This document shows positions 6,331 through 27,531 of a DNA stretch of 64,000 nt, in pieces; position 1 is the first letter of the stretch, and every line of letters begins with the position of its first letter. Source of the DNA: Acanthochlamys bracteata. Lineage: Eukaryota; Streptophyta; Magnoliopsida; Pandanales; Velloziaceae. The notes beneath the pieces were generated by a model. The model saw only the letters and a program-made list of their open reading frames with translations, searched no databases and was not told where the DNA came from. A program made the translations under genes and the position numbers. Where the stretch lies: contig CM034136.1 in the NCBI GenBank assembly GCA_019914995.1, positions 139,270-203,269 of the forward strand, read 5' to 3'.

Positions 6331-7019
6331 AAACAACCTGGTTGAGCGAAAGTTTCAAACTTTGTAGGTATGTAATTAAAGAAGGCAGGATATGCAGGTG
6401 TTTCTAAGACTTAAAAACCCAAGAGAAAAGAGTGAAATATCTCGGTTGTTTCATTGAAGATGATGATGATATCATCGATGACGAAAACGTTTAGTTAGAA
6501 AGAAATTTAGAAGGAAGAAGAGAGCAAAGCAAGTCTTCGGCAATTCATTGAAGACGTTGTTAGCAGTCAAGATATACTTGCGTGTATCTAACATTTTATT
6601 AGTAGTCAAGATCAAAATCACTGTTGTTCACTTTGGTGTAATATTTCCATTCTCTATGGAAGAGTATCACTAACAAAGTTTAAACAGAAGCAACAACACA
6701 AACCTCAATTCAACTTGGAAAAGGAGCTGAAGATTAGTGTTCTAGAGTCTTACAGACATGAAATATTTTCAAGCTTTCGTGTGAATCATATTACGCAAGA
6801 CATTTTGGGCGGATAAAGAGCAACATCCACAAGTATGGTGTCCGTCTGTTCATGGTAAGAAGAAACTAAATTCAGTTGGCCCTCAAATGATTCATAAAGA
6901 TGTAGTTCTGAATTTCAAGTACTTTTAGACCAACTCAACTGTATCCATATATATACTGGCTTTATTCTCAGAACAAATATTCACATGTGGTTCATGGAAA
7001 TGAAACTAAGTTCCAATTA

Positions 7020-8438
7020 TCAGGAATTTAAAGGTTTTACTATAACAGCAAGACCAAATTGAGGTTGAAGTGTGCCTATGTTAATAGGGCGTGGTTCGGT
7101 GAGAGCGAGAATGAAAACCTCTGCAGCATCATTGCCAACACCATCTTAGCCTCAAGCATCGCAAAGTTTTGTTTGCTCAGCAGAAACCTGTCCATGTCAG
7201 TAAATAAGAAGTGGTCTCATGTCCCGCAAAGAAAATGTCTTGCATTCATCAACAACTTCATCCATGCTAAGGCTCAATCCATCTTTCTTAGAGGCAGAAT
7301 CAGTAGCACATGTCTCTAACATCAATCCAAGGAGATCATGTCCGTAACCAGAACTGGACCAGTCGACTCCTAATGATGCTAGTAAGTGTGTTGTTCATTC
7401 TTTCGAAGCCTCCATCTATGAAGATTCCACATAGTAGGAAGATACCTGCAAACACAGAAACGGATATATATGGGTTGAGAAGTTTCATTGCAATATTATT
7501 GTTTGTAAGAATCCATGCAGAGAGTAATACTGCATCCCAGGTATTGTAGGATTCAAGAATTTAGTCATTGCCATTAACAGCAGCTCCTGCTGAGCGAGGA
7601 AGGCTTCTTTTCCTTCTTTGAAGCTACTGCCGAAGGCAGTATGCAGATATGACATTTGCTGTGAGCTCTTTGAGTTGCTTGCACATATCAATCTCTTCAT
7701 CTCTCCATCCTTCAAACATGGAGATAGCGGACCCTATCGTCGGTCATCAACTCGTATCAAATCCAAAGGCAGATATCAGTGAAAACTTTTTCGAGATTTT
7801 TCAGAAATATGAACAAGGAAAACTACAAGTTTTTAAGTCTGACCTGAGTTTGTCCATATTGAATGCGGGAGCGACGATCCTACGATGTCTGGCCCAATCT
7901 TCACCACCTCAACGAGAACCAAGCCCTTCCCCATGAAACCAACGAAGGCTGGCAGCGCTTCAGGCTTTGGAAAGAAATAAACTTATTAGACAACACCTGC
8001 TTCACCATTTCTGGATCCGTAAGACATACCGTTGGCCTTTCCCAAACCAGTAGAAGAAGGTTCTACCTATATAATATACAAAAATACGTAAATACATACA
8101 GAGTATAAACAAGAATACATCATCGAAATAATATCAAACACCTTATGTGCAATGAAAATTGCTCACCATATTGAGAGGTCCACTTTATGATGTGAGGGAG
8201 AACTTTGGGTGTAATATCATGGTCACCAACATCCATGATCATCTCTTTAGCAGCCATGTTCATGTTTTTATGTCCATTAACGATCCTTTAATGATCTTGT
8301 AAGGTTCACCTCTCAACCCTTGCTGCTTTGCTTTTGTAGCCTTGTATGGCTTCCATATGTAAGTCTCAATTGTTTCCAAAGAAATGAAGAACATACCACC
8401 CATAAAGTTGCAGCCAACAAAATTAAAACGGAAACCAT
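7020..8438 (-). pseudogene. P450 pseudogene, array unit 1 (unit 6331-8448)
   Basis: Reading on the minus strand, remnants of all five exons of the intact genes at 22.6-27.5 kb can be followed: exon 1 at 8167-8438, exon 2 at 7844-8066, exon 3 near 7534-7755, then exons 4 and 5 fused from 7445 down to a stop at 7020. Exon 1 is 5 nt short of the intact 277 nt and exon 2 is 4 nt short relative to unit 7, so the frame is lost early. A ~450-bp deletion joins the middle of exon 4 to the end of exon 5 near 7170-7180 and removes intron 4, ExxR, the PERF region and the haem-binding cysteine loop. The remaining exon 4 also carries the T4-for-T5 frameshift at the FFAGHETT helix. It cannot encode an active P450. 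It shares private variants with unit 6 (GGGCGTGGTTCGG, TTTCGAAGCCTCC). Confidence 0.93.
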
Positions 8439-9131
8439 TTCATCAACAACCTGGTTGAGCGAAAGTTTCAAACTTTGTAGGTATGTAATTAAAGAAGGCA
8501 GGATATGCAGGTGTTTCTAAGACTTAAAAACCCAAGAGAAAAGAGTGAAATATCTCGGTTGTTTCATTGAAGATGATGATGATATCATCGATGACGAAAA
8601 CGTTTAGTTAGAAAGAAATTTAGAAGGAAGAAGAGAGCAAAGCAAGTCTTCGGCAATTCATTGAAGACGTTGTTAGCAGTCAAGATATACTTGCGTGTAT
8701 CTAACATTTTATTAGTAGTCAAGATCAAAATCACTGTTGTTCACTTTGGTGTAATATTTCCATTCTCTATGGAAGAGTATCACTAACAAAGTTTAAACAG
8801 AAGCAACAACACAAACCTCAATTCAACTTGGAAAAGGAGCTGAAGATTAGTGTTCTAGAGTCTTACAGACATGAAATATTTTCAAGCTTTCGTGTGAATC
8901 ATATTACGCAAGACATTTTGGGCGGATAAAGAGCAACATCCACAAGTATGGTGTCCGTCTGTTCATGGTAAGAAGAAACTAAATTCAGTTGGCCCTCAAA
9001 TGATTCATAAAGATGTAGTTCTGAATTTCAAGTACTTTTGGACCAAATCAACAATATCCATATATATACTGGCTTATTCTCAGAACAAATATTCACATGT
9101 GGTTCATGGAAATGAAACTAAGTTCCAATTA

Positions 9132-10562
9132 TCAGGAATTTAAAGGTTTTACTATAACAGCAAGACCAAATTGAGGTTGAAGTGTGCCTATGTTAATAGG
9201 GGCGTGCTTGTAGTCTGGTGAGAGCGAGAATGAAAACCTCTGCAGCATCATTGCCAACACCATCTTAGCCTCAAGCATCGCAAAGTTTTGTTTGCTCAGC
9301 AGAAACCTGTCCATGTCAGTAAATAAGAAGTGGTCTCATGTCCCGCAAAGAAAATGTCTTGCATTCATCAACAACTTCATCCATGCTAAGGCTCAATCCA
9401 TCTTTCTTAGAGGCAGAATCAGTAGCACATGTCTCTAACATCAATCCAAGGAGATCATGTCCGTAACCAGAACTGGACCAGTCGACTCCTAATGATGCTA
9501 GTAAGTGTGTTGTTCATTCTTTCTCGAGCTTCCATCTATGAAGATTCCACATAGTAGGAAGATACCTGCAAACACAGAAACGGATATATATGGGTTGAGA
9601 AGTTTCATTGCAATATTATTGTTTGTAAGAATCCATGCAGAGAGTAATACTGCATCCCAGGTATTGTAGGATTCAAGAATTTAGTCATTGCCATTAACAG
9701 CAGCTCCTGCTGAGCGAGGAAGGCTTCTTTTCCTTCTTTGAAGCTACTGCCGAAGGCAGTATGCAGATATGACATTTGCTGTGAGCTCTTTGAGTTGCTT
9801 GCACATATCAATCTCTTCATCTCTCCATCCTTCAAACATGGAGAGAAGGAATCTGCTATCGTCGAAGTCATCTTCATGTAGCAAATCCAAAGGCAGATAT
9901 CAGTGAAAACTTTTTCGAGATTTTTCAGAAATATGAACAAGGAAAACTACAAGTTTTTAAGTCTGACCTGAGTTTGTCCATATTGAATGCGGGAGCGACG
10001 ATCCTACGATGTCTGGCCCAATCTTCACCACCTCAACGAGAACCAAGCCCTTCCCCATGAAACCAACGAAGGCTGGCAGCGCTTCAGGCTTTGGAAAGAA
10101 ATAAACTTATTAGACAACACCTGCTTCACCATTTCTGGATCCGTAAGACATACCGTTGGCCTTTCCCAAACCAGTAGAAGAAGGTTCTACCTATATAATA
10201 TACAAAAATACGTAAATACATACAGAGTATAAACAAGAATACATCATCGAAATAATATCAAACACCTTATGTGCAATGAAAATTGCTCACCATATTGAGA
10301 GGTCCACTTTATGATGTGAGGGAGAACTTTGGGTGTAATATCATGGTCACCAACATCCATGATCATCTCTTTAGCAGCCATGTTCATGTTTTTATGTCCA
10401 TTAACGATCCTTTAATGATCTTGTAAGGTTCACCTCTCAACCCTTGCTGCTTTGCTTTTGTAGCCTTGTATGGCTTCCATATGTAAGTCTCAATTGCTCT
10501 CAAAGAAATGAAGAACATACCACCCATAAAGTTGCAGCCAACAAAATTAAAACGGAAACCAT
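9132..10562 (-). pseudogene. P450 pseudogene, array unit 2 (unit 8449-10572)
   Basis: Same structure as unit 1, with the exon 4/exon 5 fusion deletion near 9285-9300 and the same exon-disrupting indels. Its exon 3 start differs from the other deleted units: around 9842-9890 it keeps the string GGAATCTGCTATCGTCGAAG found in unit 7 and the intact genes, but follows it with a private change. Its spacer near 9040 also matches unit 7 (GGACCAAATCAACAATATCC) rather than the other units. Unit 2 is therefore a mosaic of deleted-type and unit-7-type sequence. Confidence 0.92.
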
Positions 10563-11257
10563 TTCATCAACAACCTGGTTGAGCGAAAGTTTCAAACTTT
10601 GTAGGTATGTAATTAAAGAAGGCAGGATATGCAGGTGTTTCTAAGACTTAAAAACCCAAGAGAAAAGAGTGAAATATCTCGGTTGTTTCATTGAAGATGA
10701 TGATGATATCATCGATGACGAAAACGTTTAGTTAGAAAGAAATTTAGAAGGAAGAAGAGAGCAAAGCAAGTCTTCGGCAATTCATTGAAGACGTTGTTAG
10801 CAGTCAAGATATACTTGCGTGTATCTAACATTTTATTAGTAGTCAAGATCAAAATCACTGTTGTTCACTTTGGTGTAATATTTCCATTCTCTATGGAAGA
10901 GTATCACTAACAAAGTTTAAACAGAAGCAACAACACAAACCTCAATTCAACTTGGAAAAGGAGCTGAAGATTAGTGTTCTAGAGTCTTACAGACATGAAA
11001 TATTTTCAAGCTTTCGTGTGAATCATATTACGCAAGACATTTTTAAGTGGATAAAGAGCAACATCCACAAGTATGGTGTCCGTCTGTTCATGGTAAGAAG
11101 AAACTAAATTCAGTTGGCCCTCAAATGATTCATAAAGATGTAGTTCTGAATTTCAAGTACTTTTAGACCAACTCAACTGTATCCATATATATACTGGCTT
11201 TATTCTCAGAACAAATATTCACATGTGGTTCATGGAAATGAAACTAAGTTCCAATTA

Positions 11258-12684
11258 TCAGGAATTTAAAGGTTTTACTATAACAGGAAGACCAAATTGA
11301 GGTTGAAGTGTGCCTATGCTAATAGGGGCGTGCTTAGAAGTTCGTGAGAGCGAGAATGAAAACCTCTGCAGCATCATTGCCAACACCATCTTAGCCTCAA
11401 GCATCGCAAAGTTTTGTTTGCTCAGCAGAAACCTGTCCATGTCAGTAAATAAGAAGTGGTCTCATGTCCCGCAAAGAAAATGTCTTGCATTCATCAACAA
11501 CTTCATCCATGCTAAGGCTCAATCCATCTTTCTTAGAGGCAGAATCAGTAGCACATGTCTCTAACATCAATCCAAGGAGATCATGTCCGTAACCAGAACT
11601 GGACCAGTCGACTCCTAATGATGCTAGTAAGTGTGTTGTTCATTCTTTCTCGAGCTTCCATCTATGAAGATTCCACATAGTAGGAAGATACCTGCAAACA
11701 CAGAAACGGATATATATGGGTTGAGAAGTTTCATTGCAATATTATTGTTTGTAAGAATCCATGCAGAGAGTAATACTGCATCCCAGGTATTGTAGGATTC
11801 AAGAATTTAGTCATTGCCATTAACAGCAGCTCCTGCTGAGCGAGGAAGGCTTCTTTTCCTTCTTTGAAGCTACTGCCGAAGGCAGTATGCAGATATGACA
11901 TTTGCTGTGAGCTCTTTGAGTTGCTTGCACATATCAATCTCTTCATCTCTCCATCCTTCAAACATGGAGATAGCGGACCCTATCGTCGGTCATCAACTCG
12001 TATCAAATCCAAAGGCAGATATCAGTGAAAACTTTTTCGAGATTTTTCAGAAATATGAACAAGGAAAACTACAAGTTTTTAAGTCTGACCTGAGTTTGTC
12101 CATATTGAATGCGGGAGCGACGATCCTACGATGTCTGGCCCAATCTTCACCACCTCAACGAGAACCAAGCCCTTCCCCATGAAACCAACGAAGGCTGGCA
12201 GCGCTTCAGGCTTTGGAAAGAAATAAACTTATTAGACAACACCTGCTTCACCATTTCTGGATCCGTAAGACATACCGTTGGCCTTTCCCAAACCAGTAGA
12301 AGAAGGTTCTACCTATATAATATACAAAAATACGTAAATACATACAGAGTATAAACAAGAATACATCATCGAAATAATATCAAACACCTTATGTGCACTG
12401 AAAATTGCTCACCATATTGAGAGGTCCACTTTATGATGTGAGGGAGAACTTTGGGTGTAATATCATGGTCACCAACATCCATGATCATCTCTTTAGCAGC
12501 CATGTTCATGTTTTTATGTCCATTAACGATCCTTTAATGATCTTGTAAGGTTCACCTCTCAACCCTTGCTGCTTTGCTTTTGTAGCCTTGTATGGCTTCC
12601 ATATGTAAGTCTCAATTGTTTCCAAAGAAATGAAGAACATACCACCCATAAAGTTGCAGCCAACAAAATTAAAACGGAAACCAT
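11258..12684 (-). pseudogene. P450 pseudogene, array unit 3 (unit 10573-12694)
   Basis: Carries the shared ~450-bp deletion junction near 11410-11425 and the common frame-breaking indels. Near its C-terminal end it has AACAGGAAGACC, coding for LPVIVKP as in unit 7 and the two intact genes, where most other units have AACAGCAAGACC (LAVIVKP). Its spacer shows a private replacement near 11040 (ACATTTTTAAGTGG for ACATTTTGGGCGG). It cannot encode a P450. Confidence 0.92.
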
Positions 12685-13374
12685 TTCATCAACAACCTGG
12701 TTGAGCGAAAGTTTCAAACTTTGTAGGTATGTAATTAAAGAAGGCAGGATATGCAGGTGTTTCTAAGACTTAAAAACCCAAGAGAAAAGAGTGAAATATC
12801 TCGGTTGTTTCATTGAAGATGATGATGATATCATCGATGACGAAAACGTTTAGTTAGAAAGAAATTTAGAAGGAAGAAGAGAGCAAAGCAAGTCTCTGCA
12901 ATTCATTGAAGACGTTGTTAGCAGTCAAGATATACTTGCGTGTATCTAACATTTTATTAGTAGTCAAGATCAAAATCACTGTTGTTCACTTTGGTGTAAT
13001 ATTTCCATTCTCTATGGAAGAGTATCACTAACAAAGTTTAAACAGAAGCAACAACACAAACCTCAATTCAACTTGGAAAAGGAGCTGAAGATTAGTGTTC
13101 TAGAGTCTTACAGACATGAAATATTTTCAAGCTTTCGTGTGAATCATATTACGCAAGACATTTTGGGCGGATAAAGAGCAACATCCACAAGTATGGTGTC
13201 CGTCTGTTCATGGTAAGAAGAAACTAAATTCAGTTGGCCCTCAAATGATTCATAAAGATGTAGTTCTGAATTTCAAGTACTTTTAGACCAACTCAACTGT
13301 ATCCATATATACTGGCTTATTCTCAGAACAAATATTCACATGTGGTTCATGGAAATGAAACTAAGTTCCAATTA

Positions 13375-14803
13375 TCAGGAATTTAAAGGTTTTACTATAA
13401 CAGCAAGACCAAATTGAGGTTGAAGTGTGCCTATGTTAATAGGGGCGTGCTTAGAACTGGTGAGAGCGAGAATGAAAACCTCTGCAGCATCATTGCCAAC
13501 ACCATCTTAGCCTCAAGCATCGCAAAGTTTTGTTTGCTCAGCAGAAACCTGTCCATGTCAGTAAATAAGAAGTGGTCTCATGTCCCGCAAAGAAAATGTC
13601 TTGCATTCATCAACAACTTCATCCATGCTAAGGCTCAATCCATCTTTCTTAGAGGCAGAATCAGTAGCACATGTCTCTAACATCAATCCAAGGAGATCAT
13701 GTCCGTAACCAGAACTGGACCAGTCGACTCCTAATGATGCTAGTAAGTGTGTTGTTCATTCTTTCTCGAGCTTCCATCTATGAAGATTCCACATAGTAGG
13801 AAGATACCTGCAAACACAGAAACGGATATATATGGGTTGAGAAGTTTCATTGCAATATTATTGTTTGTAAGAATCCATGCAGAGAGTAATACTGCATCCC
13901 AGGTATTGTAGGATTCAAGAATTTAGTCATTGCCATTAACAGCAGCTCCTGCTGAGCGAGGAAGGCTTCTTTTCCTTCTTTGAAGCTACTGCCGAAGGCA
14001 GTATGCAGATATGACATTTGCTGTGAGCTCTTTGAGTTGCTTGCACATATCAATCTCTTCATCTCTCCATCCTTCAAACATGGAGATAGCGGACCCTATC
14101 GTCGGTCATCAACTCGTATCAAATCCAAAGGCAGATATCAGTGAAAACTTTTTCGAGATTTTTCAGAAATATGAACAAGGAAAACTACAAGTTTTTAAGT
14201 CTGACCTGAGTTTGTCCATATTGAATGCGGGAGCGACGATCCTACGATGTCTGGCCCAATCTTCACCACCTCAACGAGAACCAAGCCCTTCCCCATGAAA
14301 CCAACGAAGGCTGGCAGCGCTTCAGGCTTTGGAAAGAAGCCAGAAACTTATTAGACAACACCTGCTTCACCATTTCTGGATCCGTAAGACATACCGTTGG
14401 CCTTTCCCAAACCAGTAGAAGAAGGTTCTACCTATATAATATACAAAAATACGTAAATACATACAGAGTATAAACAAGAATACATCATCGAAATAATATC
14501 AAACACCTTATGTGCACTGAAAATTGCTCACCATATTGAGAGGTCCACTTTATGATGTGAGGGAGAACTTTGGGTGTAATATCATGGTCACCAACATCCA
14601 TGATCATCTCTTTAGCAGCCATGTTCATGTTTTTATGTCCATTAACGATCCTTTAATGATCTTGTAAGGTTCACCTCTCAACCCTTGCTGCTTTGCTTTT
14701 GTAGCCTTGTATGGCTTCCATATGTAAGTCTCAATTGTTTCCAAAGAAATGAAGAACATACCACCCATAAAGTTGCAGCCAACAAAATTAAAACGGAAAC
14801 CAT
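13375..14803 (-). pseudogene. P450 pseudogene, array unit 4 (unit 12695-14813)
   Basis: Carries the shared deletion junction and common indels. Private features are AAGAAGCCAGAAACTT at 14334-14349, where unit 7 reads AAGAAGCCAAACTT and units 1-3 and 6 read AAGAAATAAACTT, and a shortened TA run (CCATATATACTGG) near 13305. The exon 5 remnant ends with the same Ala-for-Pro codon as most units. It is non-functional. Confidence 0.92.
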
Positions 14804-15497
14804 TTCATCAACAACCTGGTTGAGCGAAAGTTTCAAACTTTGTAGGTATGTAATTAAAGAAGGCAGGATATGCAGGTGTTTCTAAGACTTAAAAACCCAA
14901 GAGAAAAGAGTGAAATATCTCGGTTGTTTCATTGAAGATGATGATGATATCATCGATGACGAAAACGTTTAGTTAGAAAGAAATTTAGAAGGAAGAAGAG
15001 GCAAAAACAAGTCTCTCAACAATTCATTGAAGACGTTGTTAGCAGTCAAGATATACTTGCGTGTATCTAACATTTTATTAGTAGTCAAGATCAAAATCAC
15101 TGTTGTTCACTTTGGTGTAATATTTCCATTCTCTATGGAAGAGTATCACTAACAAAGTTTAAACAGAAGCAACAACACAAACCTCAATTCAACTTGGAAA
15201 AGGAGCTGAAGATTAGTGTTCTAGAGTCTTACAGACATGAAATATTTTCAAGCTTTCGTGTGAATCATATTACGCAAGACATTTTGGGCGGATAAAGAGC
15301 AACATCCACAAGTATGGTGTCCGTCTGTTCATGGTAAGAAGAAACTAAATTCAGTTGGCCCTCAAATGATTCATAAAGATGTAGTTCTGAATTTCAAGTA
15401 CTTTTAGACCAACTCAACTGTATCCATATATATACTGGCTTATTCTCAGAACAAATATTCACATGTGGTTCATGGAAATGAAACTAAGTTCCAATTA

Positions 15498-16921
15498 TCA
15501 GGAATTTAAAGGTTTTACTATAACAGCAAGACCAAATTGAGGTTGAAGTGTGCCTATGCTAATAGGGGCGTGCTTGTAGTCTGGTGAGAGCGAGAATGAA
15601 AACCTCTGCAGCATCATTGCCAACACCATCTTAGCCTCAAGCATCGCAAAGTTTTGTTTGCTCAGCAGAAACCTGTCCATGTCAGTAAATAAGAAGTGGT
15701 CTCATGTCCCGCAAAGAAAATGTCTTGCATTCATCAACAACTTCATCCATGCTAAGGCTCAATCCATCTTTCTTAGAGGCAGAATCAGTAGCACATGTCT
15801 CTAACATCAATCCAAGGAGATCATGTCCGTAACCAGAACTGGACCAGTCGACTCCTAATGATGCTAGTAAGTGTGTTGTTCATTCTTTCTCGAGCTTCCA
15901 TCTATGAAGATTCCACATAGTAGGAAGATACCTGCAAACACAGAAACGGATATATATGGGTTGAGAAGTTTCATTGCAATATTATTGTTTGTAAGAATCC
16001 ATGCAGAGAGTAATACTGCATCCCAGGTATTGTAGGATTCAAGAATTTAGTCATTGCCATTAACAGCAGCTCCTGCTGAGTTGGTATGCTTTTCCTTCTT
16101 TGAAGCTACTGCCGAAGGCAGTATGCAGATATGACATTTGCTGTGAGCTCTTTGAGTTGCTTGCACATATCAATCTCTTCATCTCTCCATCCTTCAAACA
16201 TGGAGATAGCGGACCCTATCGTCGGTCATCAACTCGTATCAAATCCAAAGGCAGATATCAGTGAAAACTTTTTCGAGATTTTTCAGAAATATGAACAAGG
16301 AAAACTACAAGTTTTTAAGTCTGACCTGAGTTTGTCCATATTGAATGCGGGAGCGACGATCCTACGATGTCTGGCCCAATCTTCACCACCTCAACGAGAA
16401 CCAAGCCCTTCCCCATGAAACCAACGAAGGCTGGCAGCGCTTCAGGCTTTGGAAAGAAGTCAACTTATTAGACAACACCTGCTTCACCATTTCTGGATCC
16501 GTAAGACATACCGTTGGCCTTTCCCAAACCAGTAGAAGAAGGTTCTACCTATATAATATACAAAAATACGTAAATACATACAGAGTATAAACAAGAATAC
16601 ATCATCGAAATAATATCAAACACCTTATGTGCAACTGAAAATTGCTCACCATATTGAGAGGTCCACTTTATGATGTGAGGGAGAACTTTGGGTGTAATAT
16701 CATGGTCACCAACATCCATGATCATCTCTTTAGCAGCCATGTTCATGTTTTTATGTCCATTAACGATCCTTTAATGATCTTGTAAGGTTCACCTCTCAAC
16801 CCTTGCTGCTTTGCTTTTGTAGCCTTGTATGGCTTCCATATGTAAGTCTCAATTGTTTCCAAAGAAATGAAGAACATACCACCCATAAAGTTGCAGCCAA
16901 CAAAATTAAAACGGAAACCAT
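15498..16921 (-). pseudogene. P450 pseudogene, array unit 5 (unit 14814-16931)
   Basis: Carries the shared deletion and common indels. Private features are CTGCTGAGTTGGTATGCTTTTCC near 16073-16095 (stated here in part: GAGTTGGTATGC), replacing GAGCGAGGAAGGCTTC in exon 3; GAAGAGGCAAAAACAAG in the spacer near 14995; and AAGAAGTCAACTT in exon 2. It shares GTAGTCTGGTGAG with unit 2. It is non-functional. Confidence 0.92.
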
Positions 16922-17613
16922 TTCATCAACAACCTGGTTGAGCGAAAGTTTCAAACTTTGTAGGTATGTAATTAAAGAAGGCAGGATATGCAGGTGTTTC
17001 TAAGACTTAAAAACCCAAGAGAAAAGAGTGAAATATCTCGGTTGTTTCATTGAAGATGATGATGATATCATCGATGACGAAAACGTTTAGTTAGAAAGAA
17101 ATTTAGAAGGAAGAAGAGAGCAAAGCAAGTCTCTGCAATTCATTGAAGACGTTGTTAGCAGTCAAGATATACTTGCGTGTATCTAACATTTTATTAGTAG
17201 TCAAGATCAAAATCACTGTTGTTCACTTTGGTGTAATATTTCCATTCTCTATGGAAGAGTATCACTAACAAAGTTTAAACAGAAGCAACAACACAAACCT
17301 CAATTCAACTTGGAAAAGGAGCTGAAGATTAGTGTTCTAGAGTCTTACAGACATGAAATATTTTCAAGCTTTCGTGTGAATCATATTACGCAAGACATTT
17401 TGGGCGGATAAAGAGCAACATCCACAAGTATGGTGTCCGTCTGTTCATGGTAAGAAGAAACTAAATTCAGTTGGCCCTCAAATGATTCATAAAGATGTAG
17501 TTCTGAATTTCAAGTACTTTTAGACCAACTCAACTGTATCCATATATATACTGGCTTATTCTCAGAACAAATATTCACATGTGGTTCATGGAAATGAAAC
17601 TAAGTTCCAATTA

Positions 17614-18830
17614 TCAGGAATTTAAAGGTTTTACTATAACAGCAAGACCAAATTGAGGTTGAAGTGTGCCTATGTTAATAGGGCGTGGTTCGGTGAGAGC
17701 GAGAATGAAAACCTCTGCAGCATCATTGCCAACACCATCTTAGCCTCAAGCATCGCAAAGTTTTGTTTGCTCAGCAGAAACCTGTCCATGTCAGTAAATA
17801 AGAAGTGGTCTCATGTCCCGCAAAGAAAATGTCTTGCATTCATCAACAACTTCATCCATGCTAAGGCTCAATCCATCTTTCTTAGAGGCAGAATCAGTAG
17901 CACATGTCTCTAACATCAATCCAAGGAGATCATGTCCGTAACCAGAACTGGACCAGTCGACTCCTAATGATGCTAGTAAGTGTGTTGTTCATTCTTTCGA
18001 AGCCTCCATCTATGAAGATTCCACATAGTAGGAAGATACCTGCAAACACAGAAACGGATATATATGGGTTGAGAAGTTTCATTGCAATATTATTGTTTGT
18101 AAGAATCCATGCAGAGAGTAATACTGCATCCCAGGTATTGTAGGATTCAAGAATTTAGTCATTGCCATTAACAGCAGCTCCTGCTGAGCGAGGAAGGCTT
18201 CTTTTCCTTCTTTGAAGCTACTGCCGAAGGCAGTATGCAGATATGACATTTGCTGTGAGCTCTTTGAGTTGCTTGCACATATCAATCTCTTCATCTCTCC
18301 ATCCTTCAAACATGGAGATAGCGGACCCTATCGTCGGTCATCAACTGATCATCAAATCCAAAGGCAGATATCAGTGAAAACTTTTTCGAGATTTTTCAGA
18401 AATATGAACAAGGAAAACTACAAGTTTTTAAGTCTGACCTGAGTTTGTCCATATTGAATGCGGGAGCGACGATCCTACGATGTCTGGCCCAATCTTCACC
18501 ACCTCAACGAGAACCAAGCCCTTCCCCATGAAACCAACGAAGGCTGGCAGCGCTTCAGGCTTTGGAAAGAAATAAACTTATTAGACAACACCTGCTTCAC
18601 CATTTCTGGATCCGTAAGACATACCGTTGGCCTTTCCCAAACCAGTAGAAGAAGGTTCTACCTATATAATATACAAAAATACGTAAATACATACAGAGTA
18701 TAAACAAGAATACATCATCGAAATAATATCAAACACCTTATGTGCAACTGAAAATTGCTCACCATATTGAGAGGTCCACTTTATGATGTGAGGGAGAACT
18801 TTGGGTGTAATATCATGGTCACCAACATCC
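17614..18830 (-). pseudogene. P450 pseudogene, array unit 6, 5'-truncated (unit 16932-18830)
   Basis: Carries the shared deletion and indels. The start of the gene is missing: homology stops at 18830 inside exon 1, after the CACCAACATCC string, and runs straight into the middle of the next unit's spacer (GCAACACATTTTTTGGGCGG). About 125 bp of exon 1, the upstream region, and the first ~690 bp expected of unit 7 are therefore absent here. Variants shared only with unit 1 are GGGCGTGGTTCGG and TTTCGAAGCCTCC. It is non-functional. Confidence 0.92.
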
Positions 18831-19058
18831 AGCAACACATTTTTTGGGCGGGTAAACAGCAACATCCACAAGTATGGTGTCCGTCTGTTCATGGTAAGAA
18901 GAAACTAAATTCAGTTGGCCCCAAATGATTCATAAAGATGTAGTTCTGAATTTCAAGTACTTTTGGACCAAATCAACAATATCCATATATATACTGGCTT
19001 TATTCTCAGAACAAATATTCACATATAGTTCAAGGAAATGAAACTAAGTTCCAATTTG

Positions 19059-20955
19059 TCAGGCATGTAAAGGTTTTACTATAACAGGAAGACCAAATTG
19101 AGGTTGAAGTGTGCCTATGCTAATAGGGGCGTGCTTGTAGTTCGGTGAGAGCGAGAATGAAAACCTCTGCAGCATCATTGCCAACACCATCTTAGCTTCA
19201 AGCATCGCAAAGTTTTGCCCAACGCATGATCTAGGACCGACTGAGAATGCCAGCAGCGCGTTTGGATGCCTGGAAGCTTTCAGGACACCATTCTCAAACC
19301 GTAGAGGATTGAATTTGTTTGCCTCTTCTCCCCAGTATTTCTTGTCCCTATGGATAAGTGCTATTGGTAGAAACAGGAGTGCACCTTTCGGAATCTTAAG
19401 GTGTCCTAACGTCATATCTTTTGTGGCACTTCTAGCCATAGTGACCACAGGTGAATAGAGCCTAAGCGTTTCTAGTAAAACCATGTTAACCTGCAAACAG
19501 ACATACACTCATTAGACTTGTTAGTGATTGATATACTCAAAACTGACATGGATTCAAGAGCCTTGATATACCAATTTTAACTTGGCAAGCACGTCCGCAT
19601 TTGGAACTTCAGCACCACATTCTTCGAGTACCTCTTTCCTTAGTGTTTCTTGCCACTCTGGATTTGTGCTCAGCAGAAACACTGTCCATGTTAGTAAATA
19701 AGAAGTGGTCTCATGTCCCGCAAAGAAAATGTCTTGCATTCATCAACAACTTCATCCATGCTAAGGCTCAATCCATCTTTCTTAGAGGCAGAATCAGTAG
19801 CACATGTCTCTAACATCAATCCAAGGAGATCATGTCCGTAACCAGAATCCTTGGACTCCAGTCGACTCCTAATGATGCTAGTAAGTGTGTTGTTCATTCT
19901 TTTCTCGAGCTTCCATCTATGAAGATTCCACATAGTAGGAAGATACCTGCAAACACAGAAACGGATATATATGGGTTGAGAAGTTTTCATTGCAATATTA
20001 TTGCTTGTAAGAATCCATGCAGAGAGTATTACTGCATCCCAGGTATTGTAGGATTCAAGAATTTAGTCATTGCCATTAACAGCAGCTCCTGCTGAGCGAG
20101 GAAGGCTTCTTTCCCTTCTTTGAAGCTACTGCCGAAGGCAGTATGCGATATGACATTTGCTGTGAGCTCTTTGAGTTGCTTGCACATATCAATCTCTTCA
20201 TCTCTCCATCCTTCAAACATGGAGATAGCGGAATCTGCTATCGTCGAAGTCATCAACTTCGTATCAAATCCAAAGGCAGATATCAGTGAAAACTTTTTCG
20301 AGATTTTTCAGAAATATGAACAAGGAAAACTACAAGTTTTTAAGTCTGACCTTGAGTTTGTCCATATTGAATGCGGGAGCGACGATCCTACGATGTCTGG
20401 CCCAATCTTCACCACCCTCAACGAGAACCAAGCCCTTCCCCATGAAACCAACGAAGGCTGGCAGCGCTTCAGGCTTTGGAAAGAAGCCAAACTTATTAGA
20501 CAACACCTGCTTCACCATTTCTGGATCCGTAAGACATACCGTTGGCCTTTCCCCAAACCAGTAGAAGAAGGTTCTACCTATATAATATACAAAAATACGT
20601 AAATACATACAGAGTATAAACAAGAATACATCATCGAAATAATATCAAACACCTTATGTGCAATTGAAAATTGCTCACCATATTGAGAGGTCCACTTTAT
20701 GATGTGAGGGAGAACTTTGGGTGTAATATCATGGTCACCAACATCCATGATCATCTCTTTAGCAGCCATGTTCATGTTTTTTATGTCCATTAACGATCCT
20801 TTAATGATCTTGTAAGGTTCACCTCTCAACCCTTGCTGCTTTAAGCTTTTTGTAGCCTTGTATGGCTTCCATATGTAAGTCTCAATTGCTCTCCAAAGAA
20901 ATGAAGAACATACCACCCATAAAGTTGCAGCCAACAAAATTAAAACGGAAACCAT
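19059..20955 (-). pseudogene. Near-complete CYP709B-like P450, array unit 7, single frameshift
   Basis: Five exons with consensus splice sites on the minus strand: 20679-20955, 20351-20577, 20033-20256, 19572-19946 and 19059-19490. Their lengths match the intact paralogs (277/224/224/376/432) except exon 2, which is 3 nt longer and in frame, and exon 4, which is 1 nt shorter. The missing base is one T of a T5 run near 19726 (ACATTTTCTTTGC against ACATTTTTCTTTGC), immediately before the I-helix AGHETT motif, so translation would shift and stop soon after. All other landmarks survive: an N-terminal hydrophobic anchor, WARHRR in helix [18 protein letters not shown] and [13 protein letters not shown] with the haem cysteine. 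It is either a very young pseudogene or an intact gene with a consensus error. The same T4 run occurs in units 1-6. Neighbours are decayed copies on both sides. Confidence 0.85.
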
Positions 20956-21651
20956 TTCATCAACAACCTGGTTGAGCGAAAGTTTCAAACTTTGTAGGTA
21001 TGTAATTAAAGAAGGCAGGATATGCAGGTGTTTCTAAGACTTAAAAACCCAAGAGAAAAGAGTGAAATATCTCGGTTGTTTCATTGAAGATGATGATGAT
21101 ATCATCGATGACGAAAACGTTTAGTTAGAAAGAAATTCTAGAAGGAAGAAGAGAGCAAAGCAAGTCTCTCGGCAATTCATTGAAGACGTTGTTAGCAGTC
21201 AAGATATACTTGCGTGTATCTAACATTTTATTAGTAGTCAAGATCAAAATCACTGTTGTTCACTTTGGTGTAATATTTCCATTCTCTATGGAAGAGTATC
21301 ACTAACAAAGTTTAAACAGAAGCAACAGCACAAACCTCAATTCAACTTGGAAAAAAGGAGCTGAAGATTAGTGTTCTAGAGTCTTACAGACATGAAATAT
21401 TTTCAAGCTTTTCGTGTGAATCATATTACGCAAGACATTTTTGGGCGGATAAAGAGCAACATCCACAAGCATTGTATCCTTCTGTTCATGGTCAGACTAA
21501 GAAGAAACTGAATTCAATTGGTCCCTCAAATGTAGTTGTTCTAATTTCAAGTACTTTTAGACCAACTCAACTGTATCCATATATATACTGGCTTTATTCT
21601 CAGAACAAATATTCACATGTGGTTCATGGAAATGAAACTAAGTTCCAATTA

Positions 21652-21860
21652 TCAGGAATTTAAAGGTTTTACTATAACAGCAAGACCAAATTGAGGTTGA
21701 AGTGTGCCTATGTTAATAGGGGCGTGCTTGTAGTTCGGTGAGAGCGAGAATGAAAACCTCTGCAGCATCATTGCCAACACCATCTTAGCCTCAAGCATCG
21801 CAAAGTTTTGTTTGCTCAGCAGAAACCTGTCCATGTCAGTAAATAAGAAGTGGTCTCATG
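21652..21860 (-). pseudogene. P450 3' fragment, array unit 8 (unit 20966-21860)
   Basis: Only the C-terminal remnant is present, from the stop at 21652 through the exon 4/exon 5 deletion junction (CAAAGTTTTGTTTGCTCAGC near 21800-21820) to a break at 21860, after TGGTCTCATG. The spacer before it differs from units 1-7 between about 21470 and 21540: it reads GTATCCTTCTGTTCATGG, closer to the reverse complement of the 3' flanks of the intact genes at 24.7 and 27.7 kb. Beyond the break lies unrelated sequence and a MITE-like element. Confidence 0.9.
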
Positions 21861-22597
21861 CCATGACGGCATTAGGGCAGGGATTATTCCTTGATGAAGT
21901 GGGAATTTCGATCATGTACCATGTTTAGGGTGTGCTTCAAAATTTTAATTTTTTTTGTCAAATTTAGAATTCTGCGAATTCAGTGTTTTAGTTATTCCTT
22001 GAATTGAGAACTTTATTTTTTTTTAATATTTAAAAATTCATCACTTTAAATTGTAGAACTTTACCTCCCACATTCAACCAATTTCTAAATAAAATTAAAT
22101 ATAAAAATTAAATTCACTTCTAATCTACTTTTTAAAAAAAAAATTATAAAATTTACTTCATTTAATTTATTTTCACGTTTTTGAAACGCGCACTTAGATG
22201 GTAGACTAAAATTTTGCAGAATCACCTAAACAAACAAAGGCAAAACTGTTTGGTTCATCGGTGCGAATACTCAAAGGTGCTGAAGAAGTGAACAACAGTG
22301 ATGTTGATCTTGGCTGCTAATGAAATATTATTGTTTTCATATAATATAGATATAGAAGTGACACATGTTAGGAATCTTCAATTGATTTCAGGAGATAAGC
22401 TTTGTTTTTCTTTCTTCTGGAGTTTCTTTCTGGTAAAACATTTGCGTCAGCAATGATATCATCATCATCTTCATTGAGAGAACTTAGATAATTCACCTTT
22501 TTCTTGGATTTTTAAGTTTTAGAAACACATAATATCCTGCCTTCTTTAATTACAAACCTACAAGTATTGAAACTTTCTCTCAACGATTGTTGATGAA
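21861..22597. other. Junction and promoter region of first intact P450
   Basis: Separates the minus-strand array from the plus-strand P450. It holds a family A MITE-like element (21927-22196). From about 22240 the sequence is almost identical to 25290-25644 upstream of the second intact P450, so this is a shared 5' region. The last ~150 bases resemble, inverted, the segment upstream of the array pseudogenes (AAACACATAATATCCTGCC and similar). No separate gene is seen. Confidence 0.7.
21927..22196. repeat. MITE-like element, family A, copy upstream of P450 A
   Basis: The left end, AGGGTGTGCTTCAAAA, and the right end, TTTTTGAAACGCGCACTTAG, form imperfect inverted repeats around an A/T-rich core. 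A near-identical copy sits at 24957-25247 at the same distance from the second intact P450, so it was present before those two genes were duplicated. Confidence 0.55.
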
Positions 22598-24486
22598 ATG
22601 GGTTCCGTTTTATTTTTGTCGGCTGCAACTTTGTTGGTGTTATGTTCTTCATTTCTTTGGAGAGCAATTCAGACTTATATATGGAAGCCATACAAGACTA
22701 CAAAGAGCTTAAAGCAGCAAGGGTTGAGAGGTGAACCTTACAAGATCCTTAAAGGGTCGTTAATGGAGATAAAAAACATGAACATGGCTGCTAGAGAGAT
22801 GATCATGGATGTTGGTGACCATGATATTACACCCAAAGTTCTCCCTCACTACTTAAAGTGGACCTCTCAATATGGTGAGCAATTTTCGTTTGCGCATAAG
22901 GTGTTTGATATTATTTCAATGATGTAGTACTCTTGTTTAAACTACGTATGTATTCACGTATGTGCATATATTATATAGGTAGAACCTTCTTCTACTGGTG
23001 GGGGGATAAGCCAAGATTATGCATTAGAGATCCGGAAATGGTGAAGCAGGTGCTGTCTAACAAGTTTGGCTTCTTTCCAAAGCCTGAATGGTTGCCTTCC
23101 TTCGTTGCTTTTATTGGGAGAGGCTTGGTTCTCGTTGAGGGTGAAGACTGGGCCAGACACCGTAGGATTGTCTCTCCCGCATTCAATATGGACAAACTCA
23201 AGGTGAGACTTGTAATTTTCCTTGTTCATGTTTCAAAAAATCTCAAAAAAGTTTCCACTGATATGTGCCTTTGGATTTGATACGAAGTCGATGACTTCGA
23301 CGATAGCAGATTCTGCTATCTCCATGTTTGAAGGATGGAGAGATGAAGAGACTGATATGTGCAAGCAACTCAAAGAGCTCACAGCAAATGTCATATCGCG
23401 TACTGCCTTCGGCAGTAGCTTCAAAGAAGGGAAAGAAGCCTTCCTTGCTCAGCAGGAGCTGCTGTTAATGGCTGTGGCTAAAATGTTCAATCCTAGAATA
23501 CCCGGGATGCAGTAATACTCTCTGCTTAAATTCATACAAGCAATAATCTTGCAAAGAAAATTTTGCAACCCATATACATCCTTGCTTTGTTTGCAGGTAT
23601 CTTCCTACTATGTGGAATCTTCATAGATGGAAGCTCGAGAAAAGAATGAACAACACACTTACTAGCATCATTAAGAGTCGACTGGACTCCAAGGATTCTG
23701 GTTATGGACATGATCTGCTTGGAATGATGTTAGAGGCATGTGCTACTGACTCTGCCTCTAAGAAAGATGGATTGAGCCTTAGCATGGATGAAGTTGTTGA
23801 TGAATGCAAGACATTTTTCTTTGCGGGACATGAGACCACTTCTTATTTACTAACATGGACAGTGTTTCTGCTGAGCACAAATCCAGAGTGGCAAGAAACA
23901 CTAAGGAAGGAAGTTCTCGACGAATGTGGTACTGAAGTTCCAAATGCGGACATGCTTGCCAAGTTAAAATTGGTACGTTAAGGCTCTTGATCCAGGCTCA
24001 GTTTTGAGTATATCAATCACTAACAGGTCTCATGAGTGTATGCTTGTTGTGCAGGTTAACATGGTTTTACTGGAAACGCTTAGGCTCTATTCACCTGTGG
24101 TCATGATGACTAGAATTGCTGCAAAAGATATGACTTTAGGAGACATTCTGATTCCGAAAGGCACAGTCCTTACGCTGCCAGTAGCACTTATCCACAGGGA
24201 CAAGGAGTACTGGGGAGAAGATGCAAACAATTTCAACCCTCTACGGTTTGAGAATGGTGTCCTGAAAGCATCAAAGCATCCAAATGCGCTACTGGCATTC
24301 TCAATCGGTCCTAGATCATGCGTTGGGCAAAACTTTGCGATGCTTGAAGCTAAGATGGTTTTGGCACTGATGCTGCAGAGGTTTTCATTCTCTCTCTCAC
24401 CGAACTACAAGCACGCCCCTATTAACATAGGCACACTTCAACCACAATTCGGTCTTCCTGTTATAGTAAAACCTTTAAAATCCTGA
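22598..24486 (+). CDS. Cytochrome P450, CYP709B-like (copy A), intact
   Basis: Five exons: 22598-22874, 22979-23202, 23288-23511, 23597-23972 and 24055-24486 (510 aa). It looks like a microsomal haem monooxygenase of the CYP72 clan. An N-terminal hydrophobic segment (about residues 2-22) would anchor it in the ER. It has WARHRR in helix C, AGHETT (oxygen activation) in helix I, ETLRLYSP (ExxR), FNPLRFENG (PERF region) and [13 protein letters not shown] with the axial cysteine. Phrases such as [13 protein letters not shown] and PQFGLPV match CYP709B. The exon 1 donor must be GTGAGC at 22875, because reading on runs into a stop. Family members include fatty-acid hydroxylases (wheat CYP709C1) and CYP709B3, linked to ABA and salt responses in Arabidopsis; the substrate here is unknown. 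It lies head to head with the decayed array and tandem with copy B. Confidence 0.88.
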
Positions 24487-25644: not shown

Positions 25645-27531
25645 ATGGGTTCCGTTTTAATTTTGTCAGCAGCGACATTGTTGGTGTTATGTTCTTCATT
25701 TCTTTGGAGAGCAATTCAGACTTATTTATGGAAGCCATACAAGACTACAAAGAGCTTAAAGCAGCAAGGGTTGAGAGGTGAACCTTACAAGATCCTTAAA
25801 GGGTCGTTAATGGAGATCAAAAACATGTACATGGCTGCTAGAGAGATGATCATGGATGTTGGTGACCATGATATTACACCCAAAGTTCTCCCTCACTACT
25901 TAAAGTGGACCTCTCAATATGGTGAGCAATTTTCGTTTGCGCATAAGGTGTTTGATATTATTTCAATGATGTATTCTTGTTTAAACTACGTATGTATTCA
26001 CGTATGTGCATATATTATATAGGTAGAACCTTCTTCTACTGGTGGGGGAAAGAGCCAAGGTTATGCATTAGAGATCCGGAAATGGTGAAGCAGGTGCTGT
26101 CTAATAAGTTTGGCTTCTTTCCAAAGCTTGAAGCGATGCCTGACTTCGTTGCTTTTATTGGGAAAGGCTTGGTTCTCGTTCAGGGTGAAGACTGGGTGAG
26201 ACACCGTAGGATTGTCTCTCCCGCATTCAATATGGACAAACTCAAGGTGAGACTTCTAATTTTCCTTGTTCATGTTTCAGCAAAATCTCAAAAAAGTTTC
26301 CACTGATATGTGGCTTTGGATTTGATACGAAGTCGATGACTTCGACGATAGCAGATTCTGCTATCTCCATGTTTGAAGGATGGAGAGATGAAGAGATTGA
26401 TATGTGCAAGCAACTCAAAGAGCTCACAGCAAATGTCATATCGCGTACTGCCTTCGGCAGTAGCTTCAAAGAAGGGAAAGAAGCCTTCCTTGCTCAGCAG
26501 GAGCTGCTGTTAATGGCTGTGGCTAAAATGTTCAATCCTAGAATACCCGGGATGCAGTAATACTCTCTGCTTAAATTCTTACAAGCAATAATCTTGCAAA
26601 GAAAATTTTGCAACCCATATACATCCTTGCTTTGTTTGCAGGTATCTTCCTACTATGTGGAATCTTCATAGATGGAAGCTCGAGAAAAGAATGAACAATA
26701 CACTTACTAGCATCATTAAGAGTCGACTGGACTCCAAGGATTCTGGTTATGGACATGATCTGCTTGGATTGATGTTAGAGGCATGTGCTACTGATTCTGC
26801 CTCTAAGAAAGATGAATTGAGCCTTAGCATGGATGAAGTTGTTGATGAATGCAAGACATTTTTCTTTGCGGGACATGAGACCACTTCTTATTTACTAACA
26901 TGGACAGTGTTTCTGCTGAGCACAAATCCAGAGTGGCAAGAAACACTAAGGAAGGAGGTACTCGAAGAATGTGGTGCTGAAGTTCCAAATGCGGACGTGC
27001 TTGCCAAGTTAAAATTGGTACGTTAAGGCTCTTGATCCAAGTTCAGTTTTGAGTATATCAATCACAAACAGGTCTCATGAGTGTATGCTTGTTTTGCAGG
27101 TTAACATGGTTTTACTGGAAACGATTAGGCTCTATTCACCTGTGGTCATGATGACTAGAATTGCCGCAAAAGATATGACTTTAGGAGACATTATGATTCC
27201 AAAAGGCACAGTCCTTACGCTGCCAGTAGCACTTATCCACAGGGACAAGGAGTACTGGGGAGAAGAGGCAAACAAATTCAATCCTGTACGGTTTGAGAAT
27301 GGTGTCCTGAATGCATCAAAGCATCCAAATGCGCTACTGGCATTCTCAGTCGGTCCTAGATCATGCGTTGGCCAAAACTTTGCGATGCTTGAAGCTAAGA
27401 TGGTGTTGGCACTGATGCTGCAGAGGTTTTCATTCTCGCTCTCACCGAACTACAAGCACTCCCCTATTAGCATAGGCACACTTCAACCACAATTCGGTCT
27501 TCCTGTTATTGTAAAACCTTTAAAATCCTGA
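25645..27531 (+). CDS. Cytochrome P450, CYP709B-like (copy B), intact
   Basis: Five exons: 25645-25921, 26023-26246, 26333-26556, 26642-27017 and 27100-27531, with exon lengths identical to copy A (510 aa). The same landmarks are present: hydrophobic N-terminal anchor, WVRHRR in helix C (A has WARHRR), AGHETT, ETIRLYSP, FNPVRFENG and [13 protein letters not shown]. The copies differ by scattered substitutions, several around residues 100-135 (for example KLEAMPDF against KPEWLPSF). That stretch lies near the B-C region of P450s, where substrate recognition residues often sit, so specificity may have diverged. The start codons are 3047 bp apart and the copies share 5' and 3' flanks, marking a direct tandem duplication. 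The substrate is unknown; the ER membrane is the expected location. Confidence 0.88.

Follow-up and report, generated by a model that had tools for sequence, protein, structure and literature searches.

A truncated P450 pseudogene in a probably young tandem array within a local P450 gene cluster

The window, the whole 64-kb stretch of DNA analysed here (C11:139270-203269), contains several related P450 genes in a cluster, with the minus-strand copies U1–U8 at its left and the plus-strand genes G1 and G2 at its right. The repeated part of this cluster is probably a single truncated P450 pseudogene that has formed a tandem array, young and without function. A 449-bp deletion is common to six units and one fragment, and the core-keeping copy of the family has the same tandem fusion. 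As we picture the history, unequal crossing over would recently have multiplied the 2.12-kb unit without selection, some sequence being exchanged with U7-like copies, with G1 and G2 presumably remaining the working genes. Assembly-wide searches covered 195.5 Mb in 557 contigs.

Layout of the cluster and the lost catalytic core

In self-alignment, the array repeats head to tail with a period of 2.12 kb and an identity of 98.4–98.7%. The original prediction had counted eight units of ~2.12 kb; the period stands, but only U1–U5 are complete, U6 being truncated, U7 retaining the catalytic core, and U8 amounting to a fragment of 899 bp. A short filler (21861–21916), which partly resembles the G1/G2 boundary, separates U8 from the upstream region of G1.

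Table 1. Features of the P450 cluster, in window positions
Feature	Position	Strand	Basis
U1–U5, five complete units of 2.11–2.12 kb	6331–16927	-	self-BLAST and alignment
Content of each unit U1–U5: promoter piece, 3' flank, exon-5 tail, junction, exons 4–1 of the P450 gene		-	
U6, right-truncated, without the first part of exon 1	16928–18831	-	self-BLAST
U6/U7 join, doubtful, homology not evident	18831/18832		sequence comparison
U7, catalytic core kept	18832–20961	-	exon model
U7 exons	20679–20955, 20351–20577, 20033–20256, 19572–19946, 19059–19490	-	
U8, fragment of 899 bp; junction as in the units, 3'-flank states different (alignment columns 510–592)	20962–21860	-	
G1, intact five-exon P450 gene encoding 510 aa; head-to-head orientation to U7	22598–24486	+	
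G2, intact five-exon P450 gene encoding 510 aa; in tandem with G1	25645–27531	+	

The deletion junction, AGTTTTGTTTGCTCAGC, lies at 7165 (7165–7181, in U1), 9284, 11410, 13526, 15650, 17759, and 21804 (n = 7). Compared for differences that would speak against an array, the junctions proved identical in 7 of 7 cases, as predicted, and the junction occurs nowhere else in the assembly: a 29-mer across it gives 7 matches assembly-wide, all within the array, and its reversed control gives 0. Measured against U7, the stretch absent from U1–U6 and U8 is 19218–19666 (449 bp), in agreement with the predicted loss of ~450 bp. By the exon models it runs from late in exon 4, across intron 4, into the first part of exon 5, and the ETLR and FNPLRF motifs and the haem cysteine all fall inside it, so that U1–U6, as enzymes, lack ExxR, the PERF-type motif, and the haem-binding FxxGxxxCxG. 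A TTTG tetramer sits at each edge of the deleted stretch and the units carry two extra T at the join relative to U7; the deletion is of the end-joining type. Enzyme dosage is excluded as an explanation of the deleted units, as was originally held.

G1 matches PF00067 with 283.2 bits (curated cut-off 22.8; E = 4.7e-84); the Pfam scan covered G1, to which G2 is 94% identical over the C-terminal 172 aa. The translations of both genes contain ExxR, the PERF-type motif, and the haem-binding FxxGxxxCxG. Among the 60 solved-structure matches listed, of 163, the best are distant P450s, 3A4 and 4B1. The two genes presumably resemble the CYP709B genes of Arabidopsis. One Arabidopsis CYP709B member is tied to salt and ABA response in one report (PMC3819737).

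The reading frame of U7 is clean except for one missing T (T5 to T4, exon 4) and one extra codon (exon 2). Over exons 1–3 and 5 (1155 nt), dN/dS is 0.41 for G1–U7 and 0.39 for G2–U7, resembling the 0.45 of G1–G2, so the evolution of U7 seems, over most of its past, to have been that of a functional gene; its lone frameshift could be a late event or an artefact of the consensus. The description of the repeated P450 as dead thus fits the deleted units, which cannot make a P450, better than it fits U7, which is broken by just one base in a T-run.

Order of events in the array

The prediction that the deletion preceded amplification, or spread by conversion, is borne out. U8, which has a different 3' flank and is more diverged, has the same junction, the same two extra bases, and the same two changes near the junction (alignment columns 878 and 889) as U1–U6; the deletion is therefore older than the amplification or was conversion-spread. 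A single alignment runs unbroken over the U7/U8 boundary, as it does over the unit boundaries, so that the tandem fusion is present in the core-keeping copy too and unequal crossing over had a substrate. It had also been argued that amplifying a gene after its loss of function is unusual and calls for some other role. That argument weakens here, because the units sit in an existing tandem P450 family whose spacing the array repeats, and unequal crossing over can multiply any copy.

Isolated one-column substitutions among U1–U6 number two (columns 732 and 764), both matching U7, and a tract of U2 at columns 609–630 likewise matches U7; together these point to exchange with U7-like sequence. Isolated substitutions private to one unit number 0 in the 12,501 bp of U1–U6. 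At face value this would make the amplification very young; private sites could, however, also have been lost when a consensus was built from nearly identical units. Dating by substitutions per site, which had been proposed as a check, would accordingly mislead, since most of the differences fall in clusters and small indels abound among them.

A 38-mer of the unit, searched with up to 3 mismatches in the whole assembly, has seven copies, all at the array, and no further units were found on other contigs. As assembled, these seven copies fall short of the long head-to-tail array of many copies that defines satellite DNA. Other traces of the family were seen elsewhere: a P450 fragment at C7:4895229-4896692 is ~81% identical to G1/U7, its matches split over several frames, and C11:362791-363168 carries the promoter and exon-1 start of the same P450 family (~84% identical), with no match to the rest of the gene in the surrounding 9.9 kb.

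Fidelity of the assembled array

The principal competing explanation is that the copy number is largely a product of assembly, with the true number of deleted copies in the genome being one or two, or else far higher, with misjoined ends, and with no array as written. One observation in its favour is at the very start of the contig, where C11:1-560 equals window 18832–19390, the 3' end of U7, with 0 substitutions and 2 indels. This copy continues with the natural 3' flank to C11:711 and then runs into a retrotransposon, and not into U6. Because the 560 bp recur at C11:1 beside a different neighbour, the join at 18831/18832, which has no evident homology, is doubtful. A 43-bp stretch of U7 intron 4 occurs once assembly-wide (≤3 mismatches), so U7 and C11:1-560 probably represent a single locus twice over, whether through a misplaced contig or through a second haplotype. 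An N run of exactly 2600 follows at C11:12670; it may be a scaffold gap, in which case the sequence before it would be a 12.7-kb contig.

The 560-bp identity also suggested an inverted block of 158 kb (C11:1-158100 flipped, so that C11:1 would meet U7). Synteny with C8 argues against it, and the identity is explained more simply by a small contig put in the wrong place or by a second haplotype, provided that the 2600-N run is a real gap. Beyond the retrotransposon, C11:11077-17000, of which 2600 bases are N, has no window match that would mark a P450 unit. Telomere repeats, scored as two consecutive exact units, are absent from the 10 kb at either end of C11; at four other contig starts they are present on C12 and on C10 (after 2500 N) and absent on C18, and the start of C1 is all N.

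The element at C11:742-11076 is an LTR retrotransposon with 2.6-kb LTRs that are ~93% identical, presumably of the Ty3 type by motifs in its open frames. Its LTR differences are clustered and CG-linked: the pair has an indel-to-substitution ratio of 0.91, and of its 73 clusters 50 lie near a CG (expected 32), a count reached in 0 of 2000 placements. Dating this element by LTR divergence may overestimate its age.

The differences between the units also look in part like consensus errors. Against U7, the gene half of all six units shows 1.36–2.00 indels per substitution, with every indel ≤3 bp and with 12–18 deletions and 1–3 insertions per unit. The corresponding ratio is 0.06 for U7–G1, 0.03 for the G1–G2 genes, and 0.20 for the whole G1–G2 units, which by subtraction leaves 19 indels and 49 substitutions outside the genes. 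By Fisher's test, the indel excess (U1–U7) has p = 1e-10 against U7–G1 and p = 0.001 against G1–G2 outside the genes. The excess is not uniform across comparisons, the ratio being 0.24–1.33 between units, 0.79 for U8–U2, 1.62 for U8–U6, and 0.23 for the 3' flank of U7–U2. Those indels that every unit shares may be genuine mutations passed on by descent.

Pooled over the units, 7 of 14 variable clusters lie ≤3 bp from a CG (expected 3.6, p = 0.044), as do 7 of the 10 complex clusters (expected 3.0, p = 0.009). Pairwise, CG enrichment reaches p < 0.05 in just 1 of 15 unit–unit comparisons, and it is found in 0 of 6 comparisons of a unit with U7. The U7–G1 control, which represents real divergence, is itself mildly enriched (21 of 43 clusters, expected 14.8, p = 0.034), an effect expected of deamination; CG linkage by itself is therefore no proof of error, and deamination may contribute to the CG-linked differences. 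The controls G1–G2 genes and G1–G2 units show no CG excess (p = 0.23 and 0.27, respectively). The evidence for an error signature is thus partly mixed. Nanopore basecallers leave consensus errors at methylated motifs and at homopolymers, according to one report that concerns bacterial Dcm sites (PMC6591954). We infer that the array is methylated and that its sequence is an unpolished long-read consensus, the sequencing method being deduced in the same way.

Several observations speak for the array as a real structure. The window contains no N bases, and the same junction recurs in six in-phase units and in the diverged U8. Assemblers collapse arrays more often than they expand them. The neighbouring genes are collinear with C8, where a PIF-like gene, a P450, a MYB gene, and a fourth gene follow one another at 9.372, 9.398, 9.412, and 9.424 Mb, and the same four genes are mirrored on C11 at 178, 158–167, 144, and 136 kb. 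This synteny supports the assembled position of the array beside the MYB gene. Set against the duplicated contig start and the doubtful join, these points make an array created by assembly unlikely, and a young pseudogene array remains the preferred reading. The unit differences, the exact copy number, the age of the array, and the join at 18831/18832 are nevertheless, in our judgement, not to be trusted.

The region C8:9371847-9424300 is collinear with the window at a protein identity of 68–76%, as after a whole-genome duplication. A decayed P450 copy with six stops (9395685–9395972) lies inside this partner region.

Possible products of the deleted units

The minus-strand copies lie inverted, head to head, with respect to the plus-strand genes G1 and G2, an arrangement in which read-through or hairpin RNA could give rise to siRNAs that damp the P450 genes. 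The locus does contain inverted copies with perfect 21-nt matches to their potential targets, as an inverted-repeat siRNA locus would. Distinct 21-mers of the array are shared with G1 (302) and G2 (291), cover 717 of 1890 and 628 of 1888 gene positions, respectively, and include longest exact matches of 67 and 83; U7 shares 486 with G1 and 523 with G2, and U8 shares 40 and 30. Because the array and U7 have 21-mers in common with G1/G2, siRNA production would be possible. Such matches, however, follow from family relatedness alone (~88% identity), and the core-keeping U7 has more of them than the amplified units, so that amplification would not be needed for silencing. A promoter scan of 20900–22600 used a bacterial-type consensus and is uninformative for a plant. 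On balance we consider a silencing locus very unlikely, and it is highly improbable that loss of the core turned a P450 copy into a trans-acting silencer, with siRNAs from the units tuning G1/G2 and copy number setting the strength.

A close known likeness is the soybean CHS I locus, with inverted CHS repeats and a copy number that can change by non-allelic recombination (PMC6710647). Like the array, that locus consists of inverted, repeated copies of one gene family; it differs in that siRNA output and a phenotype are reported for it. Were silencing to be true here, the cluster would add a P450 family to the natural examples of which the soybean locus is one.

We give almost no credence to the alternative that the deleted units yield a useful truncated protein or RNA and that selection raised their number. 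In its favour are the identical junction and the promoter-proximal piece present in every unit. Against it, all six units as assembled carry frame-changing exon indels relative to U7, though consensus errors may account for some of these; the longest frame between stops in U1–U6 has 113 aa; and the haem-binding end is lost.

A functionless array of one truncated pseudogene, the reading we prefer, has a familiar setting. Tandem pseudogene clusters in plant P450 families comprise intact and truncated local duplicates and are attributed to unequal crossing over. The present cluster is like these in its local tandem duplicates, intact and truncated, and differs in that one truncated form is itself repeated, as assembled, at least six times in near-identical copies. 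Its wider meaning is mostly cautionary: in plant assemblies, tandem pseudogene arrays of recent origin can hold clustered consensus-type errors and duplicated ends, and dating or copy counts taken from the assembly alone would therefore mislead.
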